From an uncultured Oscillospiraceae bacterium (GTDB lineage: Bacteria; Bacillota; Clostridia; Oscillospirales; Oscillospiraceae): 64,000 nucleotides of DNA. Location: the NCBI GenBank assembly GCA_947581795.1, contig CANPVS010000002.1:1-64000 (forward strand), in the 5' to 3' direction. The translations under genes and the position numbers were made by a program. Numbering within the stretch: position 1 is the first letter of the stretch; each line of letters opens with the position of its first letter. Under the pieces are notes generated by a model that was not told where the DNA came from, did not search any database, and saw nothing but the letters and a program-made list of their open reading frames with translations. Shown here in pieces: positions 9,556 through 59,779 of this stretch.

Positions 9556-10180
9556 GCTGAGACTGAAATTCTCCAAGACCGGGCGGGCGGTGTATATCTC
9601 CCACCTGGACCTGATGCGCACCATGCAGCGGGTGTTCTCCCGGGCGGGAGTGAAGCTCAAATACTCCGAGGGCTTCAACCCTCATGCGAAGATATCCATC
9701 GTGCTGCCCCTGAGCGTGGGCACGGCCAGTCTGTGTGAATATATGGATTTTACGCTCACAGAGGATATGGATCTGTCCGCCCTGCCGGAACGGCTGAACG
9801 CCTGTATGCCCGAGGGCATCCGGGCCCTGGAGGCCTACGAGGCCCCCTGCAAGGGGGCGGAGCTGCGCTGGCTGCTGATGGAGGGCGTGATAAAGGGCGG
9901 CCGGGACGCGGCCTTCTATACCGCGTTCTTCAGCCAGGATACCATCCCTGTCACCCGCAAGGCCAAGCGGGGCATGCGCACCGACGACATCGCCCCCGCC
10001 ATCCAGGCGGCGCAGTTCGACGATATGGAAGGAGGCGTAGCCGCCAAACTGATCCTCCACGCCCAGGACCCCACCGTGAGCCCGGAGCTGATGATGGCCG
10101 CCCTGGGGGAGGACGCCCCCGCCTACTGGCGCTTCACCCGTTTGGAGGCCTTCCGGGAGGACATGACCCCCTTCCGGTGA
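9548..10180 (+). CDS. TIGR03936 family radical SAM-associated protein (DUF2344)
   Basis: Cytosolic partner (210 residues) of the preceding radical SAM enzyme, starting at GTG and overlapping it by 8 bp. It begins LRLKFSKTGRAVYISHLDLMR, then FNPHAKISIVLPLSVGTASLCEYMDF, the recognisable DUF2344 core. In many bacteria the two genes are fused or adjacent, so they probably act as one enzyme. No catalytic residues can be assigned. Confidence 0.88.
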   Translation: MDKLRLKFSKTGRAVYISHLDLMRTMQRVFSRAGVKLKYSEGFNPHAKISIVLPLSVGTASLCEYMDFTLTEDMDLSALPERLNACMPEGIRALEAYEAPCKGAELRWLLMEGVIKGGRDAAFYTAFFSQDTIPVTRKAKRGMRTDDIAPAIQAAQFDDMEGGVAAKLILHAQDPTVSPELMMAALGEDAPAYWRFTRLEAFREDMTPFR

Positions 10181-50538: not shown

Positions 50539-52170
50539 ATGGACGAGAGAAAAATGATGCAGTCTTTCCTGGACGCCGAAGCGGAAGACAGACCGGTGTG
50601 GATCGCCGACGTACGCGAGGCGGCGGAGGCCGAGCCGGACACGGCCCATGTGAGCGCGCGGCTTTTGCTGTCCGACGGCGGCACGGTGGACTTCTCCATC
50701 CCCATTCCCCGGACGGAGACAGGCGAGGGACATGACTTCGCCTGGGAGTACCTGCGGGCCACCGTGTTTAACATCCTGGCGGTCTATGGGGGCCAGGCCC
50801 TGCAGCTTCTATATGATTGGGACATGGAGATAGGCAGCCTGGTGCGGATGCTGCCGCTCGCGTTTCAGGTCATTGAGATCCACCGCAGCGGATACGGCAA
50901 GACAGTCAGCGTGGCGAACCGGATCAACCGGGCCCTTGGCGGCCGTAAATTTGATTTGATCTATAACTACGAAAAGCCTCTCTTTCCCGCGCCGGAGCCC
51001 CATGCCGCGAATGGAGGCGCTGAGCTTGCCGACAGGCTGAAGAAGGCGGCGGAAAAGGCGGAGAAAGGCCTTCTCTGCGGCGTGGACGTGGGCGGCACGG
51101 ACGTAAAGCTGGCCCTGGCGAAAAACGGGGAGCTGCTCTGCGTGCGGGTGATGGATTGGGACCCCTCCCAAAGCCCCACGGCGGAGGGGATCATCGGACC
51201 CCTTATAGACTTTATTCAGGCCGCGCTTGACGAGGCCGCTCCCGGAGAGAAGCTGGACAGCCTGGGCGTCAGTTTTCCCGACGTGGTGGTCCGGGACCGT
51301 ATCGTGGGCGGGGAGACGCCCAAAACGAAGGGCATCCGGGAAAATGCTGGGAACTACGAGGCGGAGTTTGCCGAGCTCACAAACCTGAAAGATACGCTGG
51401 CGGCGCTGTGCGTCCCCGGCGCGCCTGTCCATATCATCAACGACGGCCACATGGCGGCCTTCACCGCGGCTATGGAGATGGCCCACGGCGGCCGGGAGGG
51501 AGAACTGGACAGGGGCGTTATCGCCCACACTCTGGGCACAGACCTGGGCACCGGGTGGCTTTCGCCGGACGGGTCCATACCGGAGGGGCCCATGGAGCTT
51601 TACGACCTGCTTCTGGACCTGGGGAGCGGTCCCAGCCGGGCGCTGGACCCGGCTGACCTGCGTTCCACCCGCAACGAGAATTCCGGTCTGCCCGGGTCCC
51701 GGCGGTACATGGGCCAGGCGGCCGCCTTCCGACTGGCATGGGAACTGGACACGACCCTGCTGGACGGCTTCGTGGCCTGGGAGGGGGAGACGGTGCGCAT
51801 CATATCGGAGCCGGACATGCGCAAGCCCTGCCTGGCCCACCTGATGGCCAAGGCGGAGGAGGGACACCCTGCGGCCCGGGAGATATTCCGCCGCATCGGG
51901 ACGCACCTGGGCCAGGTTTGCCGGGAGGAGAAATGGCTGCTTCATCCGGTGACGGACACCCGCTTCCTCTTCGGCAGGCTCGTCAAGAGTCCGGTATGCT
52001 TTGCGCTTCTTCAGGAGGGCTGCGCCTCCGTGGCGCCCAATATCCATTTGGAGGCGGCGGACGAGGCCCTGGCCAACACGCACCTTATGAAGGCGCTGGC
52101 AAAAATGGAGAGCGGGGCGGTGGCCCAGTACGGCCAGGCGGTGGGAGCGCTCTATTACGCTCTCTATTGA
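50539..52170 (+). CDS. ROK-like sugar kinase with N-terminal extension
   Basis: Protein of 543 residues. Residues ~178-540 show the ASKHA/ROK pattern: phosphate-1 motif GVDVGGTDVKLALAK (about 181), INDGHMAAFTA, and GTDLGTGWL in the phosphate-2 region. The zinc-binding CxCGxxGC cluster of classical ROK repressors is absent. Residues 1-175 form a separate unrecognised domain that could be a ligand or regulatory module. The sugar substrate cannot be named. It follows the Fbp-type importer by 43 bp and ends 7 bp before the first candidate ATG of the TIR gene. Confidence 0.75.
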   Translation: MDERKMMQSFLDAEAEDRPVWIADVREAAEAEPDTAHVSARLLLSDGGTVDFSIPIPRTETGEGHDFAWEYLRATVFNILAVYGGQALQLLYDWDMEIGSLVRMLPLAFQVIEIHRSGYGKTVSVANRINRALGGRKFDLIYNYEKPLFPAPEPHAANGGAELADRLKKAAEKAEKGLLCGVDVGGTDVKLALAKNGELLCVRVMDWDPSQSPTAEGIIGPLIDFIQAALDEAAPGEKLDSLGVSFPDVVVRDRIVGGETPKTKGIRENAGNYEAEFAELTNLKDTLAALCVPGAPVHIINDGHMAAFTAAMEMAHGGREGELDRGVIAHTLGTDLGTGWLSPDGSIPEGPMELYDLLLDLGSGPSRALDPADLRSTRNENSGLPGSRRYMGQAAAFRLAWELDTTLLDGFVAWEGETVRIISEPDMRKPCLAHLMAKAEEGHPAAREIFRRIGTHLGQVCREEKWLLHPVTDTRFLFGRLVKSPVCFALLQEGCASVAPNIHLEAADEALANTHLMKALAKMESGAVAQYGQAVGALYYALY

Positions 52171-52213
52171 CAGGAACATGCGCCGCACAGCGGACAGAGA
52201 GGAGATGCAGACC

Positions 52214-55200
52214 GTGGAGGAGAACAGGCAGTACAGATATTTCGCGTTCATCAGCTATAGCCGCAAGGATGAGCGCTGGGCCAAGTGGCTGCAGAACCGT
52301 CTGGAGACCTACCATCTGCCCGCCGCCGTGCGCAAACAGCATGAGGACACGCCCAGGCGCATCGCGCCGGTGTTCCGGGACAAGACGGACCTGTCGGGGG
52401 GCGTTTTACAGGAACAGCTGCACAACGAACTGGACGAATCCCGTTTTTTGATCCTGATATGCTCGCCCAACAGCGCCGCGTCCGAGTGGGTGGACCGGGA
52501 AGTCCGGCGCTTCGTCGGGGGCGGCCGGGCAGAGCAAATCATTCCCTTTGTGGTGGACGGCGTAGCGGATCAGTCGGTATTCCCGCCGTCGCTGCGGTGG
52601 GGCGAGGAGAAATCCCTGCTGGGCATCAGCGTGGAGGAGATGGGTCGCACGGCGGCGTTCCTGCGGGTGGTGTCCACCATGCTGGGACTGAAATACGACG
52701 AGCTTGCGCGCCGGCACAGGAAGCGCATGGTCCGTCGGTGCGCGGCGGCGGCGGTGCTGGCAGTGCTGGCCCTGGCCGCTGCTGGCCGGGTTTGGTGGTA
52801 CTATACGCCCCACAGCGCCTATTACGCCAACTATGTGACCCGGTACGAGATACCGGAGGGCGTGAATGAGCTGAGCGCCAAAGAGCGGCAGGGTCTGAGC
52901 GAGTATTACCGCATCGTCACCCGCAAGGGAAAACCGGTGCTGCTGGAGCGGGTAAACGCCGCGGGCGACCTGGTGGATCCGTCCCTGCTGATGATAAACA
53001 CAGAGCAGCCGAGGACGGAATTCATCTATAACGACGACGGGAGCATTGCCAAAACAAAACTGTATAATGCGCAGGGACAGCCGGTGCTGCAAAAGTCGTT
53101 TGCCTACGAGCCGGGCACCGGCCAAATCGCCATCGACTACCAGCAGCCCTGGAACAGCCTGCAGGCGATGACGCTGGTGGGGGATACGTCCGACTTCTAT
53201 CTGGATGAGAACGATGGTAACCGCAGCGACGTCGCGCGGCTTTTGAACACCTATGACGAGAACGGCTTTCTGACGGAGAGCCTCTATCTGCGTGACAACC
53301 GCAACACCCCTGTCTGTGACGCCAACGGTGTGTACGGCATACGCTACGAGCACAGCGGGGAGGGGCTGATCACGGTGGCCGCGTACCTGGATGAGAACGG
53401 CCAGCCTCACGCCTCCCGCTACGGCGTGGCGGGAGAGCGCTATACATACGACGCGCAAGGGCGCTTGGTGCTGGGCGTGAGCTTTGACCAGAACGGGGAC
53501 CCGGTGCGCAATAATGAGGGCTACGCGCAGATGGCTACGGAATATGACGGTGCAGGCAACCTCGTGAACATCACCCTGTTGGATGAGAGTGGGGCGCGGT
53601 GCTACGGCGCCGAGGGATTTGCCGAGATGCAGATCGGTTATGATGACCGGGGCATGCGGGTGAGCGTCCGGTATTTCGGCACGGCCGGCCGGCCGGCCTA
53701 CGAGACAGAGAGCGGCGCCCACGAATTCCGTTATGGCTATGACGGGCAGGGGCGGGTGATCAGCGCCGATATCTATGACGCGGACGGAAAGCCCATGTAC
53801 GACCTGAACGGAGTGGCCAGCTCCCGCTTCTACTACGACGAGCTGGGCAGAGTGACGGCAGTCCGGTATGTTGACGCACAGGGCGAGCTGTGCCCGATGC
53901 TCGACGGCATAGCCGGTGTCGACATGACCTATGACGAGAACGGGTACCAACAGTCGTACACTCCCGTCGGCGCGGACGGCGAGCCGTACATATCAGACGA
54001 CGGCACCATAACGCTGTTTTTTACCTACGATGAACAGGGGAACCGTTTGCGTGAGGAAGGGCTGGACGAAAACGGGGCCCTGCTGGAGGACAGCGACGGT
54101 GTGGCGGTCATTACCTATGAGTATGACAGCGTGGGGAATCTGAGCTCTAAGTCGTATTTTGACAGCCGGGAGGAGCCATGTCTGCCGTGGGGCTACAGCA
54201 GTGTCCGGTACGTCTACAAGGACGGCAACTGCGTCTCGGAGAGTTATTTCGGCGTGGACGGCGAGCCGGTCAGTCCCCAGGGCTGGCATGAGAAACGGAA
54301 TGAATACGACGAATGGGGCAACGTCCGGTGCATCACCTACCATGACGAGCAGGGTGCGCTGGTCACGCAGGGGATCGCCCGACTGGAGCAGGTGAGTGAC
54401 AGCTACGGCAATGTGCTGGAGCAGCGCTATTACGACGCGGACGGCCAGCCGTACCAGTACGAGGGCGCCGTTGAGTCATACTGGAAGCGGGAGAGGGAGT
54501 ATGACCGCTGGGGCGATCTGGTGCGGGATACCTGTTATTCCCTCACGGGTCAGTACCGCCGCGGCTACGCTACGGCCCTGTTGCAGTACGACGCGCGGCA
54601 CAACGCCGTTCGCAATGAGTTCCTGGACGAGAATGGGGAGCCATGTGTAGACGACACCGGCGTCGGTGTGATCCTCAACACGTATGACGAGCGGAATCTG
54701 CTCCTGCGCCAGGAGTATCTGGACGGGAGCGGCCGGCCGGGCAGCAGCTACGGCATATCCGCGATCGAGAAACAGTACGATAAGCGCGGCAGGCTGGTGC
54801 GGGACCTGTATTACCGTCCCGACGGCAGCGGCGGGGAGACGATAGACCGCCAGTACGTTTACCTCTACGACGAGCACGGAGAGGTCGAGTCCCGCACTCT
54901 ATGGGAGGACGATGATGCGCAAAGCATGCTGATCCAAGCCATGTGTGTGAAGGCGTCCACTCCGGCCGCCGAGCAGGCGGGGATCGTCCCGGGGAGCGTG
55001 GTGCTGCTCTGGAGTGACTGGAATTACTATGCCTGCGGCTCTCCTGCTAACGCGGTAGAAGCGTTCCAGGAAGAGAGGCTGGACGACAGTCCCGACAGAG
55101 TGCTGTTGTTTGCGGCCGCGGAGCAGGGAGACGGACAGTACGGCATCGTGTATCGTCTCCTTGACCGAGAGGAGTCAGAGCAGATGCAGTTCGCCCAGGA

Positions 55201-55300
55201 TAAGATCACCATGGATGAGTACAGACAGATCGCCGAGATGTTTTCGTCTTTCCTCAAACGTGCGGAACAGGATCTGATAGACAGTGATGAGGCGGAATAA
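52214..55300 (+). CDS. TIR domain–transmembrane–YD/Rhs-like repeat protein, copy 1
   Basis: Protein of 1028 residues from GTG 52214, with AGAGAGGAG nine bases upstream; an ATG at 52178 would add 12 residues. Residues ~5-165 are a TIR domain: YFAFISYSRKDERWAKWL opens it, and SEWVDREVRRF contains WxxxE (W92, E96), as in the NAD-cleaving SARM1 class. A basic stretch precedes one membrane helix (~176-197), so TIR should be cytoplasmic. Outside, ~32-33-residue units of the form YDxxGxxxxxxYxDxxGxP fill ~270-905. A PDZ-like segment (AAEQAGIVPGSVVLLW) lies at ~915-990. Role inferred: receptor-like sensor. Confidence 0.85.
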   Translation: MEENRQYRYFAFISYSRKDERWAKWLQNRLETYHLPAAVRKQHEDTPRRIAPVFRDKTDLSGGVLQEQLHNELDESRFLILICSPNSAASEWVDREVRRFVGGGRAEQIIPFVVDGVADQSVFPPSLRWGEEKSLLGISVEEMGRTAAFLRVVSTMLGLKYDELARRHRKRMVRRCAAAAVLAVLALAAAGRVWWYYTPHSAYYANYVTRYEIPEGVNELSAKERQGLSEYYRIVTRKGKPVLLERVNAAGDLVDPSLLMINTEQPRTEFIYNDDGSIAKTKLYNAQGQPVLQKSFAYEPGTGQIAIDYQQPWNSLQAMTLVGDTSDFYLDENDGNRSDVARLLNTYDENGFLTESLYLRDNRNTPVCDANGVYGIRYEHSGEGLITVAAYLDENGQPHASRYGVAGERYTYDAQGRLVLGVSFDQNGDPVRNNEGYAQMATEYDGAGNLVNITLLDESGARCYGAEGFAEMQIGYDDRGMRVSVRYFGTAGRPAYETESGAHEFRYGYDGQGRVISADIYDADGKPMYDLNGVASSRFYYDELGRVTAVRYVDAQGELCPMLDGIAGVDMTYDENGYQQSYTPVGADGEPYISDDGTITLFFTYDEQGNRLREEGLDENGALLEDSDGVAVITYEYDSVGNLSSKSYFDSREEPCLPWGYSSVRYVYKDGNCVSESYFGVDGEPVSPQGWHEKRNEYDEWGNVRCITYHDEQGALVTQGIARLEQVSDSYGNVLEQRYYDADGQPYQYEGAVESYWKREREYDRWGDLVRDTCYSLTGQYRRGYATALLQYDARHNAVRNEFLDENGEPCVDDTGVGVILNTYDERNLLLRQEYLDGSGRPGSSYGISAIEKQYDKRGRLVRDLYYRPDGSGGETIDRQYVYLYDEHGEVESRTLWEDDDAQSMLIQAMCVKASTPAAEQAGIVPGSVVLLWSDWNYYACGSPANAVEAFQEERLDDSPDRVLLFAAAEQGDGQYGIVYRLLDREESEQMQFAQDKITMDEYRQIAEMFSSFLKRAEQDLIDSDEAE

Positions 55301-55302
55301 GA

Positions 55303-55332
55303 CCGCCGGGCCGCTGTTGACGACCGGCGGCT
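55303..55332. repeat. Duplicated hairpin and remnant -35 after TIR copy 1
   Basis: CCGCCGG...CCGGCGG encloses CTGTTGACGA. The same unit after copy 2 (58463-58492) carries TTGACA, the -35 box of the pyrimidine operon promoter. Here no -10 box follows. Confidence 0.7.
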
Positions 55333-55374
55333 GAGAACATGCGCCGCACAGCGGACAGAGAGGAGGTGCAGACG

Positions 55375-58300
55375 GTGGAAGAGAACAGGCAGTACAGATA
55401 TTTCGCGTTCATCAGCTACAGCCGCAGGGATGAGCGCTGGGCCAAGTGGCTGCAGAACCGTCTGGAGACCTACCATCTGCCCGCCGCCGTGCGCAAACAG
55501 CATACGGACACGCCCCGGCGCATCGCGCCGGTGTTCCGGGACAAGACGGACCTGTCGGGGGGCGTTTTACAGGAACAGCTGCACAGTGAGCTGGACGATT
55601 CCCGTTTTTTGATCCTGATATGCTCGCCTAACAGCGCCGCGTCCGAGTGGGTGGACCGGGAGGTCCGGCACTTCATCGGGAGCGGCCGGAAGGAGCAGAT
55701 CATTCCCTTTGTGGTGGACGGCGTAGCGGATCAGTCGGTATTTCCGCCGTCGCTGCGGTGGGGCGAGGAGAGGTCCCTGCTGGGCATCAGCGTGCAGGAG
55801 ATGGGTCGGACGGCGGCGTTCCTGCGGGTGGTGTCCACCATGCTGGGACTGAAATACGACGAGCTTGCGCGCCGGCACAGGAAGCGCATGATCCGTCGGT
55901 GCACCGCCGCTGCGGTGCTGGCAGTGCTGGCCCTGGCCGCTGCTGGCCGGGTTTGGTGGTACTATACGCCCCACAGCGCGTATTACGCCAACTATGTGAC
56001 GCGGTACGAGATACCGGAGGGCGTGAATGAGCTGAGCGCGAAAGAACGGCAGGGCCTGAGCGAGTATTACCGCATCGTCACCCGCAAGGGAAAACCGGTG
56101 TTGCTGGAGAGGGTGAATGCCGCGGGCAATCTGGTGGATCCTATGGTCCTGAATGCGAACGTGGATCATCCGAGGATGGAATTCATCTACAACGACGACG
56201 GGCGTATCGCCAGGACCAAGCTGTATGATGAGCAGGGCCGGCCAGTGCAGCAAAAGTCATTTGCCTACGAGCCGGGCACCGGCCAAATCGCCATAGACTA
56301 CCAGCAGCCAGGGAACAGCTTGCAGGCGATGACGCTGAAGGGAGATACCGCTGATTACCATATGGATGGTGACGACGGTAACCGCAGCGACATCGCGCGG
56401 CTCTTGAACACCTATGACGAGAACGGCTTTCTGACGGAGAGCCTCTATCTGCGTGACAACCGCAATACCCCTGTCTGCGACGCCAACGGCGTGTACGGCG
56501 TGCGCTACGAGCACAGCGGGGAGGGCCTGGTCACGGAGACTACATATCTGGACGAAAACGGCCAGCCCCACGCCTCCCGCTACGGCGTGGCGGGGGAACA
56601 CTATACATACGACGCGCAAGGGCGCTTGGTGCTGGGCGTCACCTTTGGCCCGGACGGCGATCCGGTGCGTGACAGGGCGGGCCACGCGCAGTTGGCGGTG
56701 GAATATGACGCTATTGGCAACCCTGTGAAGATCAGCCGCCTGGACGAGAACGGGGCGCTGTGCTTCGGAGGCGATCAATACGCCGAGGTGCAGTTCAGCT
56801 ATGATGAACAGGGGCTGCGGTTGAGCGAGCGTTCCTTTGGCACGGACGGCCAGCCTGCCTATGATTCGGTAAACGGCGCTCACGAATACCGCTATGGCTA
56901 TGACGGACAGGGGCGGTTGATCAGCATCGACAACTATGACGCGGACGGCGAGCCCATGTACGACCAGAACGGGACGGCCGGTATGCGTATTTGCTACGAT
57001 GAGTTGGGCAGGGAAGCGGGGTTCTGGTATGTTGACGCACAGGGTGAACTTTGCGCGGGGTTCGACGGCATAGCCGGCTACAGCGCGACTTATGACGGGA
57101 ACGGATACTATCAGTCGTACACCCCCATCGGCGCGGACGGCGGGCCGTACATATCAGACGACGGCACTATGACGCTGTTTTTTACCTATGATGAACAGGG
57201 AAACTGCGTGCGTGAGGAGAATCGGGACGAAAACGGGGCCCTGCTGGAGGACATCGACGGCGTGGCGGTCTGGATCTATGCGTATGACAGCGCCGGGAAC
57301 CAGGTATCCATGTCCTATTTTGACAGCCGGGAGGCGCCTTGTCTGCGGGATGGCTGCAGCAGCATGCGATTCGAATATGAAAACGGCAACCGCGTCTCGA
57401 AGAGCTTTTTCGGCGTGGATGGGGAGCCGGTCAGCGTGGACGGCATACATGAGGTGCGCACGGAATACGATGACCGGGGCAATGTGGTGCGCGAGAGCTA
57501 TTTTGACGAACAGGGAGAGCTTACCCGGGATGGATACGCGCGGATAGAGCTGGTGACGGACAGCTGGGGCAACGAGCTGGAGCGGCGCTATTATGACGCG
57601 GACGGCGAGCCGTATCAGTATGAGGGCGGCGCTGAGTCATACTGGAAGCGGGAGAAGGAATACGACCGCTGGGGCAATCTGGTGCGGGATACCTGTTATT
57701 CCCTCACAGGCGAGTACCGCCGGGGCTTCGCCACAATGCTGTCGCAGTACGACGAGCGGCACAACCTCGTCCGCCAGGAGCTCCTGGACGAGAATGGGCA
57801 GCCCTGCGTGGATGACGGCGGCGCCGGCGTGATCATCAATACGTATGATGAGAGAAATCTGCTCCTGCGCCAGGAGTATCTGGATGAAAACGGACAGCCG
57901 GGCAACGGCTACGGCATATCCGCGATAGAACGGCAGTACGATGAGCGCGGCCGGCTGGTGCGGGACGTGTATTACCGGCCCGACGGCAGCGGCGGAGAGA
58001 CGATGGATCGCGAGATCCTCTACACATACGACGAGTATGGCGAGATCGCCGCCAGAGACGTCCGGTACAGCGATGACGCAGAGCGGAACGAGGTGACCAC
58101 GATGATGTGTGTGGAGGCGTCCGCCCCGGCTGCCGAGCAGGCGGGGATCGTCCCGGGGAGCATTGTACTGCACTGGAACAGCTGGGACTGCTTCAGCTAT
58201 GATACCCTTATTGACGCGTTGAACGCATTCGGGGAAGAGAGACAGGACGACAGCTCCGACAGTGTGCTGCTGTTCGCGGCCGTAGAGCAGGAAGACGGAC

Positions 58301-58461
58301 AGTATGCCATCGTGCGTCAGATCCTTGACCGCGGGGAGTCAGAGCAGATGCAGTTCGGCGTGAGCACAGTCACTGAGATCGAGTTCGAGCAGATCGGCAA
58401 AGCGTATATATCTTTCCTCGAAGGATTGAGGCAGACCCTCGCGGGTGATGAGACGGAATAA
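55375..58461 (+). CDS. TIR domain–transmembrane–YD/Rhs-like repeat protein, copy 2
   Basis: Paralogue of the preceding gene with the same length and domain order. The best start is GTG 55375, eight bases after a consensus AGGAGG. The position matching the second ATG of copy 1 is a GTG here. The ATG at 55339 has no ribosome binding site. TIR and membrane helix differ from copy 1 at only about a dozen residues by eye, and W92xxxE96 is kept. The repeats differ much more, for example CYDELGREAGFWYVDAQGEL here. It may share a transcript with copy 1 (38-bp gap to the ATG). Ligand and output unknown. Confidence 0.85.
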   Translation: MEENRQYRYFAFISYSRRDERWAKWLQNRLETYHLPAAVRKQHTDTPRRIAPVFRDKTDLSGGVLQEQLHSELDDSRFLILICSPNSAASEWVDREVRHFIGSGRKEQIIPFVVDGVADQSVFPPSLRWGEERSLLGISVQEMGRTAAFLRVVSTMLGLKYDELARRHRKRMIRRCTAAAVLAVLALAAAGRVWWYYTPHSAYYANYVTRYEIPEGVNELSAKERQGLSEYYRIVTRKGKPVLLERVNAAGNLVDPMVLNANVDHPRMEFIYNDDGRIARTKLYDEQGRPVQQKSFAYEPGTGQIAIDYQQPGNSLQAMTLKGDTADYHMDGDDGNRSDIARLLNTYDENGFLTESLYLRDNRNTPVCDANGVYGVRYEHSGEGLVTETTYLDENGQPHASRYGVAGEHYTYDAQGRLVLGVTFGPDGDPVRDRAGHAQLAVEYDAIGNPVKISRLDENGALCFGGDQYAEVQFSYDEQGLRLSERSFGTDGQPAYDSVNGAHEYRYGYDGQGRLISIDNYDADGEPMYDQNGTAGMRICYDELGREAGFWYVDAQGELCAGFDGIAGYSATYDGNGYYQSYTPIGADGGPYISDDGTMTLFFTYDEQGNCVREENRDENGALLEDIDGVAVWIYAYDSAGNQVSMSYFDSREAPCLRDGCSSMRFEYENGNRVSKSFFGVDGEPVSVDGIHEVRTEYDDRGNVVRESYFDEQGELTRDGYARIELVTDSWGNELERRYYDADGEPYQYEGGAESYWKREKEYDRWGNLVRDTCYSLTGEYRRGFATMLSQYDERHNLVRQELLDENGQPCVDDGGAGVIINTYDERNLLLRQEYLDENGQPGNGYGISAIERQYDERGRLVRDVYYRPDGSGGETMDREILYTYDEYGEIAARDVRYSDDAERNEVTTMMCVEASAPAAEQAGIVPGSIVLHWNSWDCFSYDTLIDALNAFGEERQDDSSDSVLLFAAVEQEDGQYAIVRQILDRGESEQMQFGVSTVTEIEFEQIGKAYISFLEGLRQTLAGDETE

Positions 58462-58477
58462 AACCGCCGGACCGCTG

Positions 58478-58506
58478 TTGACAACCGGCGGCGGGTGTGC
58501 TACAAT
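58478..58506 (+). promoter_or_regulatory. Promoter of the pyrimidine operon
   Basis: TTGACA (58478-58483), a 17-bp spacer and TACAAT (58501-58506). The -35 box sits in the hairpin shared with the TIR duplication. A hairpin CGGCG...CGCCG with inner TCC/GGGA pairs (58515-58539) lies in the leader. No PyrR-binding consensus was recognised. Confidence 0.8.
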
Positions 58507-58567
58507 GCCCCAAACGGCGCTCCGGATAACGGGACGCCGCTCACGCTGGAAGAGAGGGCGATGGTCT

Positions 58568-59779
58568 GTGGAGGGCGTTTTCAAGGGCACTGTGTTCATG
58601 CCGGACCCCTATTCCCGTTTTTGCCTGCCCAGCGGCGGGGCCAGTATTCCCTTTTCCGGCCGTCCCGATGGCGAATATATCGTTTTTCCCGGCTTTTGCG
58701 ATGTGCATGTGCATTTTCGCGAGCCGGGATTTTCTTATAAGGAGACCATCGCCGCTGGCTCCGCCGCCGCGGCCCACGGGGGCTATACCGCCGTGTGTAC
58801 CATGCCTAATCTAAACCCTGTGCCGGACAGCGCGGCGGCCATGGCGGTCCAGGAGGACATCATCCGCCGGGACGCCTGTATTCACGTCTATCCCTACGGC
58901 GCCATCACCGCAGGTGAAAAGGGGGAGAAGCTTGCCGACATGGCGGCCATGACCGGGGCCGTCGCCTTTTCCGACGACGGCCGGGGCGTCCAGTCCAAGG
59001 ACATGATGCGCGCCGCCATGGGCAAGGCGAAGAGCCTGGGCAAGATCATCGCCGCCCACTGCGAGGTGAACGAACTGCTTCACGGCGGGTATATCCACGA
59101 CGGGGCCTACGCCGCTGCCCACGGCCATCGGGGCATATGCTCCGAGAGCGAGTGGCGGGAGGTGGAGCGGGACCTCCGGCTGGCGAAGGAGACCGGCTGC
59201 GCCTTCCACGTGTGCCACATCTCCACCAAGGAGAGCGTGGCCCTCATCCGCCGGGCCAAGGCGGAGGGGGTGGACGTGACATGCGAGACCGGGCCCCATT
59301 ACCTTACGATGGATGAAAACGATCTAGAAGAGGACGGCCGGTTCAAAATGAACCCGCCCCTGCGGTCCAAGGCTGACCGGGAGGCCCTTCTGGAGGGTCT
59401 CGCAGACGGCACCATCGACATGATTGCCACGGACCACGCCCCCCACAGCGCAGAGGAGAAGTCGAAGGGCCTGGCCGGCAGCGCCATGGGCGTGGTGGGA
59501 CTGGAGACGGCCTTCCCGGTGCTGTATACCTACCTGGTGAAGCCGGGCGTGCTCAGCTTGGAACGGCTCATGGAACTTCTGGTCTACAACCCCCGCAGGC
59601 GGTTTAATATTCCCCTGGGAGAGGACTACTCGGTGTGGGAGCTGGACAAGGCCTTCACCGTGGACCCGGAGAAGTTTCTGTCCAAGGGCCGGGCCACGCC
59701 CTTCGCGGGCAGGGAGCTGTACGGCGTGTGCCGGCTCACGGTCTGCGGCGGCAAAGTGGTCTATAAGAACGAAGAATAA
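58568..59779 (+). CDS. pyrC: Dihydroorotase
   Basis: Zinc amidohydrolase closing carbamoyl-aspartate to dihydroorotate in pyrimidine synthesis, 403 residues from GTG 58568 with GAGAGGG upstream. Longer frames run across the promoter and into the TIR gene end. Metal ligands: DVHVHFREPG, a later HCEVNE and HVCHISTKES, and catalytic DHAPHSAEEK. CETGPHYL is also conserved. It is the first gene of the pyrC-carB-pyrK-pyrD run. Confidence 0.95.
   Translation: MEGVFKGTVFMPDPYSRFCLPSGGASIPFSGRPDGEYIVFPGFCDVHVHFREPGFSYKETIAAGSAAAAHGGYTAVCTMPNLNPVPDSAAAMAVQEDIIRRDACIHVYPYGAITAGEKGEKLADMAAMTGAVAFSDDGRGVQSKDMMRAAMGKAKSLGKIIAAHCEVNELLHGGYIHDGAYAAAHGHRGICSESEWREVERDLRLAKETGCAFHVCHISTKESVALIRRAKAEGVDVTCETGPHYLTMDENDLEEDGRFKMNPPLRSKADREALLEGLADGTIDMIATDHAPHSAEEKSKGLAGSAMGVVGLETAFPVLYTYLVKPGVLSLERLMELLVYNPRRRFNIPLGEDYSVWELDKAFTVDPEKFLSKGRATPFAGRELYGVCRLTVCGGKVVYKNEE

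Follow-up and report, generated by a model that had tools for sequence, protein, structure and literature searches.

The DNA examined here is a stretch of 64,000 nucleotides from an uncultured Oscillospiraceae bacterium (assembly GCA_947581795.1, contig CANPVS010000002.1, positions 1 to 64,000, forward strand), referred to hereafter as the window. It contains a tandem pair of genes, each predicted to encode a membrane receptor with an N-terminal TIR domain, one membrane helix, a YD-repeat region and a PDZ-like end. We propose, with a probability of about one half, that this is a surface receptor pair whose TIR domains likely make an ADP-ribose (ADPR)-type messenger for membrane proteins that carry a RyR (ryanodine receptor) domain. 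The proposal builds on the domain order, a conserved glutamate, the position of the pair in a fixed site, the diverged outer halves, a chassis common to other receptors and the RyR neighbourhood, all established at the level of sequence. The features of the locus are as follows (residues refer to receptor 1; aa, amino acids).

52178..55300, + strand: receptor 1, 1040 aa, TIR - membrane helix - YD-repeat region - PDZ-like end
52220..52687, + strand: TIR domain of receptor 1, residues 15-170
52499..52501, + strand: codon of E108 in SEWVDRE, the catalytic-type glutamate, Glu in 159/159 rows and aligned to the plant L6 glutamate
52727..52795, + strand: predicted single membrane helix, residues ~184-206, with a basic stretch N-terminal to it (hydropathy)
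52793..53047, + strand: juxtamembrane module, residues 206-290, common to kinase, STAND and caspase relatives
53012..54907, + strand: YD-repeat region, residues 279-910, two-strand units of 32 residues (autocorrelation, model, Foldseek)
54929..55165, + strand: PDZ-like domain, residues 918-996 (model, iterated hidden Markov model)
55211..55282, + strand: C-terminal helix, residues 1012-1035 (structural model)
55339..58461, + strand: receptor 2, tandem copy with the same layout, 1040 aa (Pfam, alignment)
50539..52170, + strand: ROK-like gene, left side of the insertion site (family matches)
58445..59779, + strand: dihydroorotase gene (pyrC), right side of the insertion site, start uncertain

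The open reading frame (ORF) 52178-55300 contains an in-frame GTG at 52214, 12 codons in, as an alternative start. Because the database copy P0003 has 1028 aa, consistent with the GTG, either start of receptor 1 is possible. The start used here lies 12 codons further upstream than that of an earlier note on this DNA, so the residue numbered E96 there is E108 in the 1040-aa numbering.

The N-terminal TIR domain described in that note was recovered both by Pfam (PF13676 over residues 24-129, E 1e-14, above the cut-off) and as a TIR fold in the structural model. The conservation of its catalytic-type glutamate was borne out by a 162-row alignment, from which the identical copy P0003 was removed and in which the window's own copies were retained. 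Position 108 was Glu in 159 of the 159 rows with a residue there (3/162 were gapped), and S96 and D68 were also invariant in 159 aligned rows. A profile made from 30 TIR rows paired E108 with the glutamate of SKWCLMEL in plant L6, which we take to be the catalytic residue of that protein. A sequence search of solved structures with receptor 1 returned a plant TIR alone (E 0.42), and a structure comparison with VIA-align covered the TIR domain, whose matches filled its list.

Receptor 1 has a single segment with a 19-residue mean hydropathy above 1.6 (1.94 at residue 188; the runner-up reached 1.04), directly preceded by the basic stretch LARRHRKRMVRRC, as the earlier note had it, and the structural model places a helix over residues 173-209. 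Hydropathy and the positive-inside pattern agree with a one-helix, N-in/C-out topology. Consistent with this, and with the model, the TIR domain is predicted to lie inside the cell and the repeats and PDZ-like part outside. Identity autocorrelation along receptor 1 was highest at lag 32 and second at lag 64, followed by lags 12 and 96, and the model contains 20 two-strand units over residues ~279-910 with a predicted local distance difference test score (pLDDT) mostly >90, in keeping with the YD repeats of ~32 residues seen earlier. Pfam gave RHS_repeat matches, and Foldseek gave Rhs, teneurin and Tc chains as best matches (E 1e-27 to 1e-15) with TM-scores of just 0.1-0.3. Phage records yielded one weak match (25%) to the repeats, in an unannotated record. 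The PDZ-like tail stood in part: segment 923-1026 belongs to a family that, by an iterated hidden Markov model (HMM), has members in 79 of 209 retrieved proteins, counting those of the window, and Pfam PDZ_6 is present in two listed relatives (P0035 and P0059), but Pfam PDZ gave no match at E ≤1 in either receptor of the window. A TIR fold, a predicted membrane segment and repeats predicted on the side opposite to TIR were all obtained, the lack of any of which the earlier note had named as grounds for dropping its interpretation. That interpretation is supported for fold, helix and predicted topology; it was incomplete, since it missed the tandem pair, the chassis with outputs other than TIR and the RyR neighbour.

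Receptor 2 begins 38 bases downstream of receptor 1, is equal in length and is 76% identical to it. A gap of 8 bases separates the stop of the ROK-like gene from the receptor 1 ATG. In a survey of the genus, a long receptor match was present in 4 of 35 genomes (G000, G006, G007 and G014), in all of which receptors adjoin pyrC; three further genomes match over TIR alone. The ROK-like and pyrC matches are <100 bases apart in G031 and G027, which represent the empty site. The juxtamembrane module was present in 1 of 299 phylum genomes, namely the window's own, and at least two frames with the module were seen in 12 of 71 related loci outside the genus, one of which may be a split gene. Stretches of 41 bases at or just after the ends of the two receptor genes (55291-55331 and 58452-58492) are alike (37/41 by eye), the second copy extending toward the likely pyrC promoter; they are probably the edge of the tandem duplication. 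The pyrC beside a receptor at G006:C84:655-1923 has an in-frame TGA in that assembly, and its nonsynonymous divergence (dN) was left out of comparisons as a frame-break artefact.

The two receptors of the window are 94% identical over residues 1-180 and 75% identical over residues 211-905. Synonymous divergence (dS) was 0.11 over the inner and 0.46 over the outer of these segments, and for the pair in G014 the values were 0.11 and 0.95, respectively. When fourfold sites were divided at residue 260, a split picked after the dS windows had been seen, 10 of 130 inner sites differed vs 61 of 224 outer sites in the window pair (p 4e-6) and 7 of 133 vs 56 of 138 in the G014 pair (p 8e-13). The four receptor comparisons between G000 and G014 leaned the same way (p 0.009 to 3e-9), whereas one G007 gene compared with the G006 gene showed the opposite trend (32/88 vs 47/228, p 0.006). 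Genes flanking the site had a dS of 0.14-0.34 between G000 and G014. Similar inner and diverged outer halves suggest homogenisation within the genome on the inside and independent change or exchange on the outside, and gene conversion likely keeps the inner halves alike within one genome.

A contig scan with a single receptor sequence returned no relative; an alignment query then found relatives. For the 71 related loci outside the genus, an inventory was made of the two closest called genes in either direction (114 upstream, 96 downstream). RyR (PF02026) was the commonest family upstream (4/114) and was tied with two other families downstream (3/96); no other partner stood out. The called genes are greedy longest ORFs, on the wrong strand in some GC-rich loci, and RyR genes were counted from six-frame HMM matches instead. 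Of the 71 loci, 26 contain RyR-like frames according to an HMM started from the RyR domain encoded in the window's own genome. As labelled in the records, the RyR-bearing loci belong to Bacillota, Bacteroidota, Spirochaetota, Lentisphaerota and Hydrogenedentota and, by our own HMM only, to Actinomycetota and Synergistota. Five rounds of iteration from a single seed may have let this HMM drift, and the candidates were therefore checked with Pfam, which confirmed PF02026 in 24 of 42 candidate proteins (E ≤0.01); combined with individual tests, these counts imply about 20 of the 71 loci.

Six of the 42 candidates, proteins of 505-525 aa found one in each of six loci, contain a TVGYG filter and match the two-helix layout of a K+ channel; all six loci are Clostridia-type as labelled and may be one lineage. 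The RyR protein of locus L042, the only one searched, matched KcsA (E 4e-14) as well as a ryanodine receptor (E 1e-13). At this locus the receptor ATG at 9959 precedes the stop of the RyR-channel gene at 9967-9969, so that the two genes overlap. A protein that combines a KcsA-like pore with a RyR domain, and whose gene overlaps the receptor gene, fits a gated effector.

Within the window's own genome, PF02026 matched at one locus (L091, on contig C62) with 107.5 and 30.7 bits against a cut-off of 27.4. The cluster there consists of a 600-aa TIR-helix-PDZ gene, a stand-alone RyR gene, a gene for a 551-aa protein with no Pfam match and one for a RyR membrane protein. The stand-alone RyR protein matched RyR1 chains with a whole-chain E of ~1e-55 over four repeats, and the membrane protein, of 480 aa, carries its RyR domain at the C-terminus and has two hydrophobic segments. 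In G014 the stand-alone RyR, 551-aa and 480-aa proteins are present at 96-99% identity without the TIR-PDZ gene. In G007 the 551-aa and 480-aa proteins are present at 68%, with no trace of the TIR-PDZ gene in the ~1 kb to the end of the contig, which makes its absence there weaker evidence than in G014; in G006 the TIR-PDZ gene and the RyR protein are both present. The TIR_2 matches in G014 and G007 are YD-type receptors only (two in G014). RyR was found in 4 of 4 genus carriers vs 2 of 31 other genus genomes (one-sided p 3e-4, from incomplete genomes). This distribution favours the RyR module as a common effector that would be acted on in trans. The 600-aa gene of the cluster (L091:2469-4271) repeats the order TIR, membrane helix, PDZ with a different middle part.

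Relatives were not confined to TIR receptors. Residues 210-905, used as the sole query, retrieved 334 proteins, and the precomputed Pfam lists of the 120 that were listed carried 22 kinase, 11 STAND, one STAND plus TIR and two caspase labels; one of the caspase-labelled proteins, P0151, also has nSTAND1. An HMM of residues 206-290 built from TIR receptors only matched 21 of 22 kinase, 11 of 11 STAND, the one STAND plus TIR and both caspase proteins, missing kinase P0124 and finding P0165 weakly (domain E 0.056); it also matched 160 of 160 TIR-labelled proteins, many of them training rows, and 2 of 13 without an output label. The module is preceded, within ~55 residues, by a hydrophobic segment in 20/21 kinase matches and 11/11 STAND proteins, but not in caspase P0159. 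On a tree of the juxtamembrane module and first repeats (101 rows: 31 of 36 non-TIR proteins, five being too short and dropped, and 70 sampled TIR rows), the output label changed 10 times against a minimum of 3. This points weakly to repeated swapping of output domains on a chassis, since many inner branches are open (43/97) and end branches are long.

Five proteins (P0128, P0133, P0170, P0191 and P0197) combine a signal-peptide-like start with YD repeats like those of the ectodomain and have no output domain; they are possible secreted ligands or decoys. In three chassis relatives (P0149, P0188 and P0162) the N-terminal part is unlabelled or multi-helix, and these may be further output types.

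The proposed mechanism would run as follows. A ligand bound to the repeats or to the PDZ-like part would gather TIR domains, and the assembled TIR would turn NAD+ into a cyclic or other ADPR signal. A RyR domain would bind this signal and open or alter a membrane channel, whose action would stop growth or kill the cell. In the window's own genome the signal would have to act in trans on the RyR module of contig C62, because that module lies on another contig. The pairing of a variable sensor with an unchanging output suggests that the ligand is a product of phages or rivals, which is the least certain step. More tentatively, and with the odds against it, the whole might be a Toll-like surface alarm in which a fast-changing ectodomain, TIR, a cyclic ADPR-type messenger and a RyR K+ channel act in sequence, a forerunner of the signalling between cyclic ADPR (cADPR) and ryanodine receptors, with the chassis as a general platform for TIR, kinase, caspase and STAND outputs.

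Several observations weigh against a receptor pair that signals to RyR proteins in immunity. The window itself has no RyR gene, the own-genome PF02026 matches being confined to L091, and the 480-aa RyR protein there has no TVGYG filter. The genus carriers may all belong to a single lineage, so they do not count as four independent events, and G027 and G033 have RyR without a YD-type receptor. The partner class of ~620-650 aa had no Pfam confirmation of RyR where tested (L042, L060 and L077). The background for the RyR counts (PF02026 in 7 of 299 phylum genomes, the window's own included, and in 0 of 14 control genomes) is unmatched, as it covers one phylum vs loci from several and has no random-locus control. 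TIR-membrane proteins of other kinds have RyR genes beside them as well (L091 and L187), so the link is not special to the YD ectodomain. Among the neighbours (114 upstream, 96 downstream), PADLOC matches were scattered, with at most 4 members per model, and no positive selection is claimed for the outer part, as its dN/dS was ~0.3-0.45.

The same receptor and messenger chain might serve a purpose other than immunity, sensing the state of the cell's own envelope, exported proteins that have misfolded or contact with kin, and leading to dormancy or control of ion homeostasis. This is a real though less probable alternative, with which several features sit well: a PDZ-like end would detect misfolded exported proteins, the neighbour scans showed no conserved defence neighbour, the chromosomal site beside pyrC is fixed in the genus and the outer-part dN/dS is below 0.5. 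Conflict is a better fit than housekeeping for the patchy presence (4/35 genus and 1/299 phylum genomes) and for an outer part whose divergence or exchange is independent of the inner part. It is rather improbable that clustered TIR acts alone by depleting NAD+, with the adjoining RyR genes modulating the response or clearing by-products instead of serving as effector. NAD+ depletion is a known activity of bacterial TIRs (passages of PMC9503650), one phage RyR protein is described as a glycosidase that destroys the signal (passages of PMC13232231), and 45 of the 71 loci, some with incomplete flanks, show no RyR gene in the flanking DNA at hand, a count that also tells against a RyR partner; the fusion of RyR to a KcsA-like pore and the gene overlap at L042 fit a gated effector. 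Many TIR domains only assemble, according to the abstract of PMC7075850, and TIR might here be a scaffold that recruits other proteins without NAD chemistry, a reading made very unlikely by the invariance of E108, S96 and D68. Least credible, and already disfavoured, is a polymorphic-toxin-like Rhs/YD protein with the repeats as toxin shell and TIR as cargo or anchor: the RHS_repeat and Foldseek matches speak for it, against which stand the TM-scores of 0.1-0.3, the lack of a C-terminal toxin domain by Pfam, the N-terminal position of TIR ahead of the membrane helix and the kinase and STAND domains carried by the same chassis.

The earlier note knew of no named defence system with this layout, and none matched well in our searches. 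The best PADLOC match was SAVED_TIR over the TIR alone (E 4e-7), the match to Thoeris ThsB was partial (E 0.0064), and NCBIfam TIR matches were far under their cut-offs (ThcB4, 11.5 bits vs 220); Pfam ThsB_TIR scored 32.3 bits, above its cut-off of 21.2. As in Thoeris, a TIR protein would supply an ADPR-type messenger to a separate effector. ThsB proteins are cytosolic, whereas TIR here is on a predicted membrane receptor and the candidate effector carries a RyR domain; no ThsA-type effector is adjacent to the pair, its neighbours being the ROK-like gene and pyrC. A single membrane helix between a cytosolic TIR and an outer array of repeats or domains is also the plan of animal Toll-like and IL-1 receptors, but here TIR is N-terminal, YD repeats take the place of leucine-rich repeats or immunoglobulin domains and the catalytic-type glutamate is kept. 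We know of no transmembrane surface receptor among SARM1, SPARTA, AbTIR and the plant TIR enzymes. With Rhs/YD proteins and teneurins the receptors share YD repeats and the top Foldseek matches; they differ in low TM-scores and in having no toxin domain by Pfam, and the repeats are here proposed as a receptor ectodomain. Partner genes of the receptor carry a RyR domain, as do ryanodine receptors and the phage protein RyDEP; unlike these, the bacterial partners stand alone or are joined to a membrane part, KcsA-like or otherwise. Passages of PMC13232231 describe phage RyR-domain proteins that cleave or sequester 2'cADPR and 3'cADPR, which is the sole direct biochemical hint for the proposed mechanism. 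A defence island is not claimed because the PADLOC matches were scattered and had no control set.

No paper joining a YD repeat with a TIR domain was found, and a literature search on RyR domain, TIR and bacterial, in which preprints were thinly covered, returned the phage RyDEP preprint and a phage proteomics paper. RHS repeats are unmentioned in the available passages of PMC7075850, PMC8195603, PMC7159879 and PMC9503650, and the RyR domain is absent, reference titles aside, from those of PMC8195603, PMC9503650 and PMC7159879. YD-repeat TIR receptors appear to be a variant of TIR immune-type signalling not previously described in the literature found.

A membrane TIR receptor that is widespread and varies in its outer part would mean that bacteria, too, have Toll-like sensing at the cell surface; to our knowledge, known bacterial TIR immune systems sense inside the cell. 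cADPR is said to act on the animal calcium-release channel, the ryanodine receptor, on a basis that is still argued, and the RyR-channel link, if true, would tie TIR messengers to a domain of that channel. With a chassis common to TIR, kinase, caspase and STAND receptors, a ligand found on one branch would help with the others.

Some further genes were noted in the course of the survey. A TIR protein of the same genus, in G021 (L093:3872-7132, - strand), gave weak matches of beta-propeller type and is adjoined by a 626-aa gene whose C-terminus is RyR-like by our own HMM, not by Pfam. RyR genes lie 2-3 kb from receptors at three loci from Bacteroidales-type genomes (L050:5618-6775, L054:5713-6840 and L079:19846-20886), and two of the three additionally match a C39-like peptidase. 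At L027:3718-6540, ~3.5 kb from the receptor, RelA/SpoT, TPR and RyR domains occur together in one gene.

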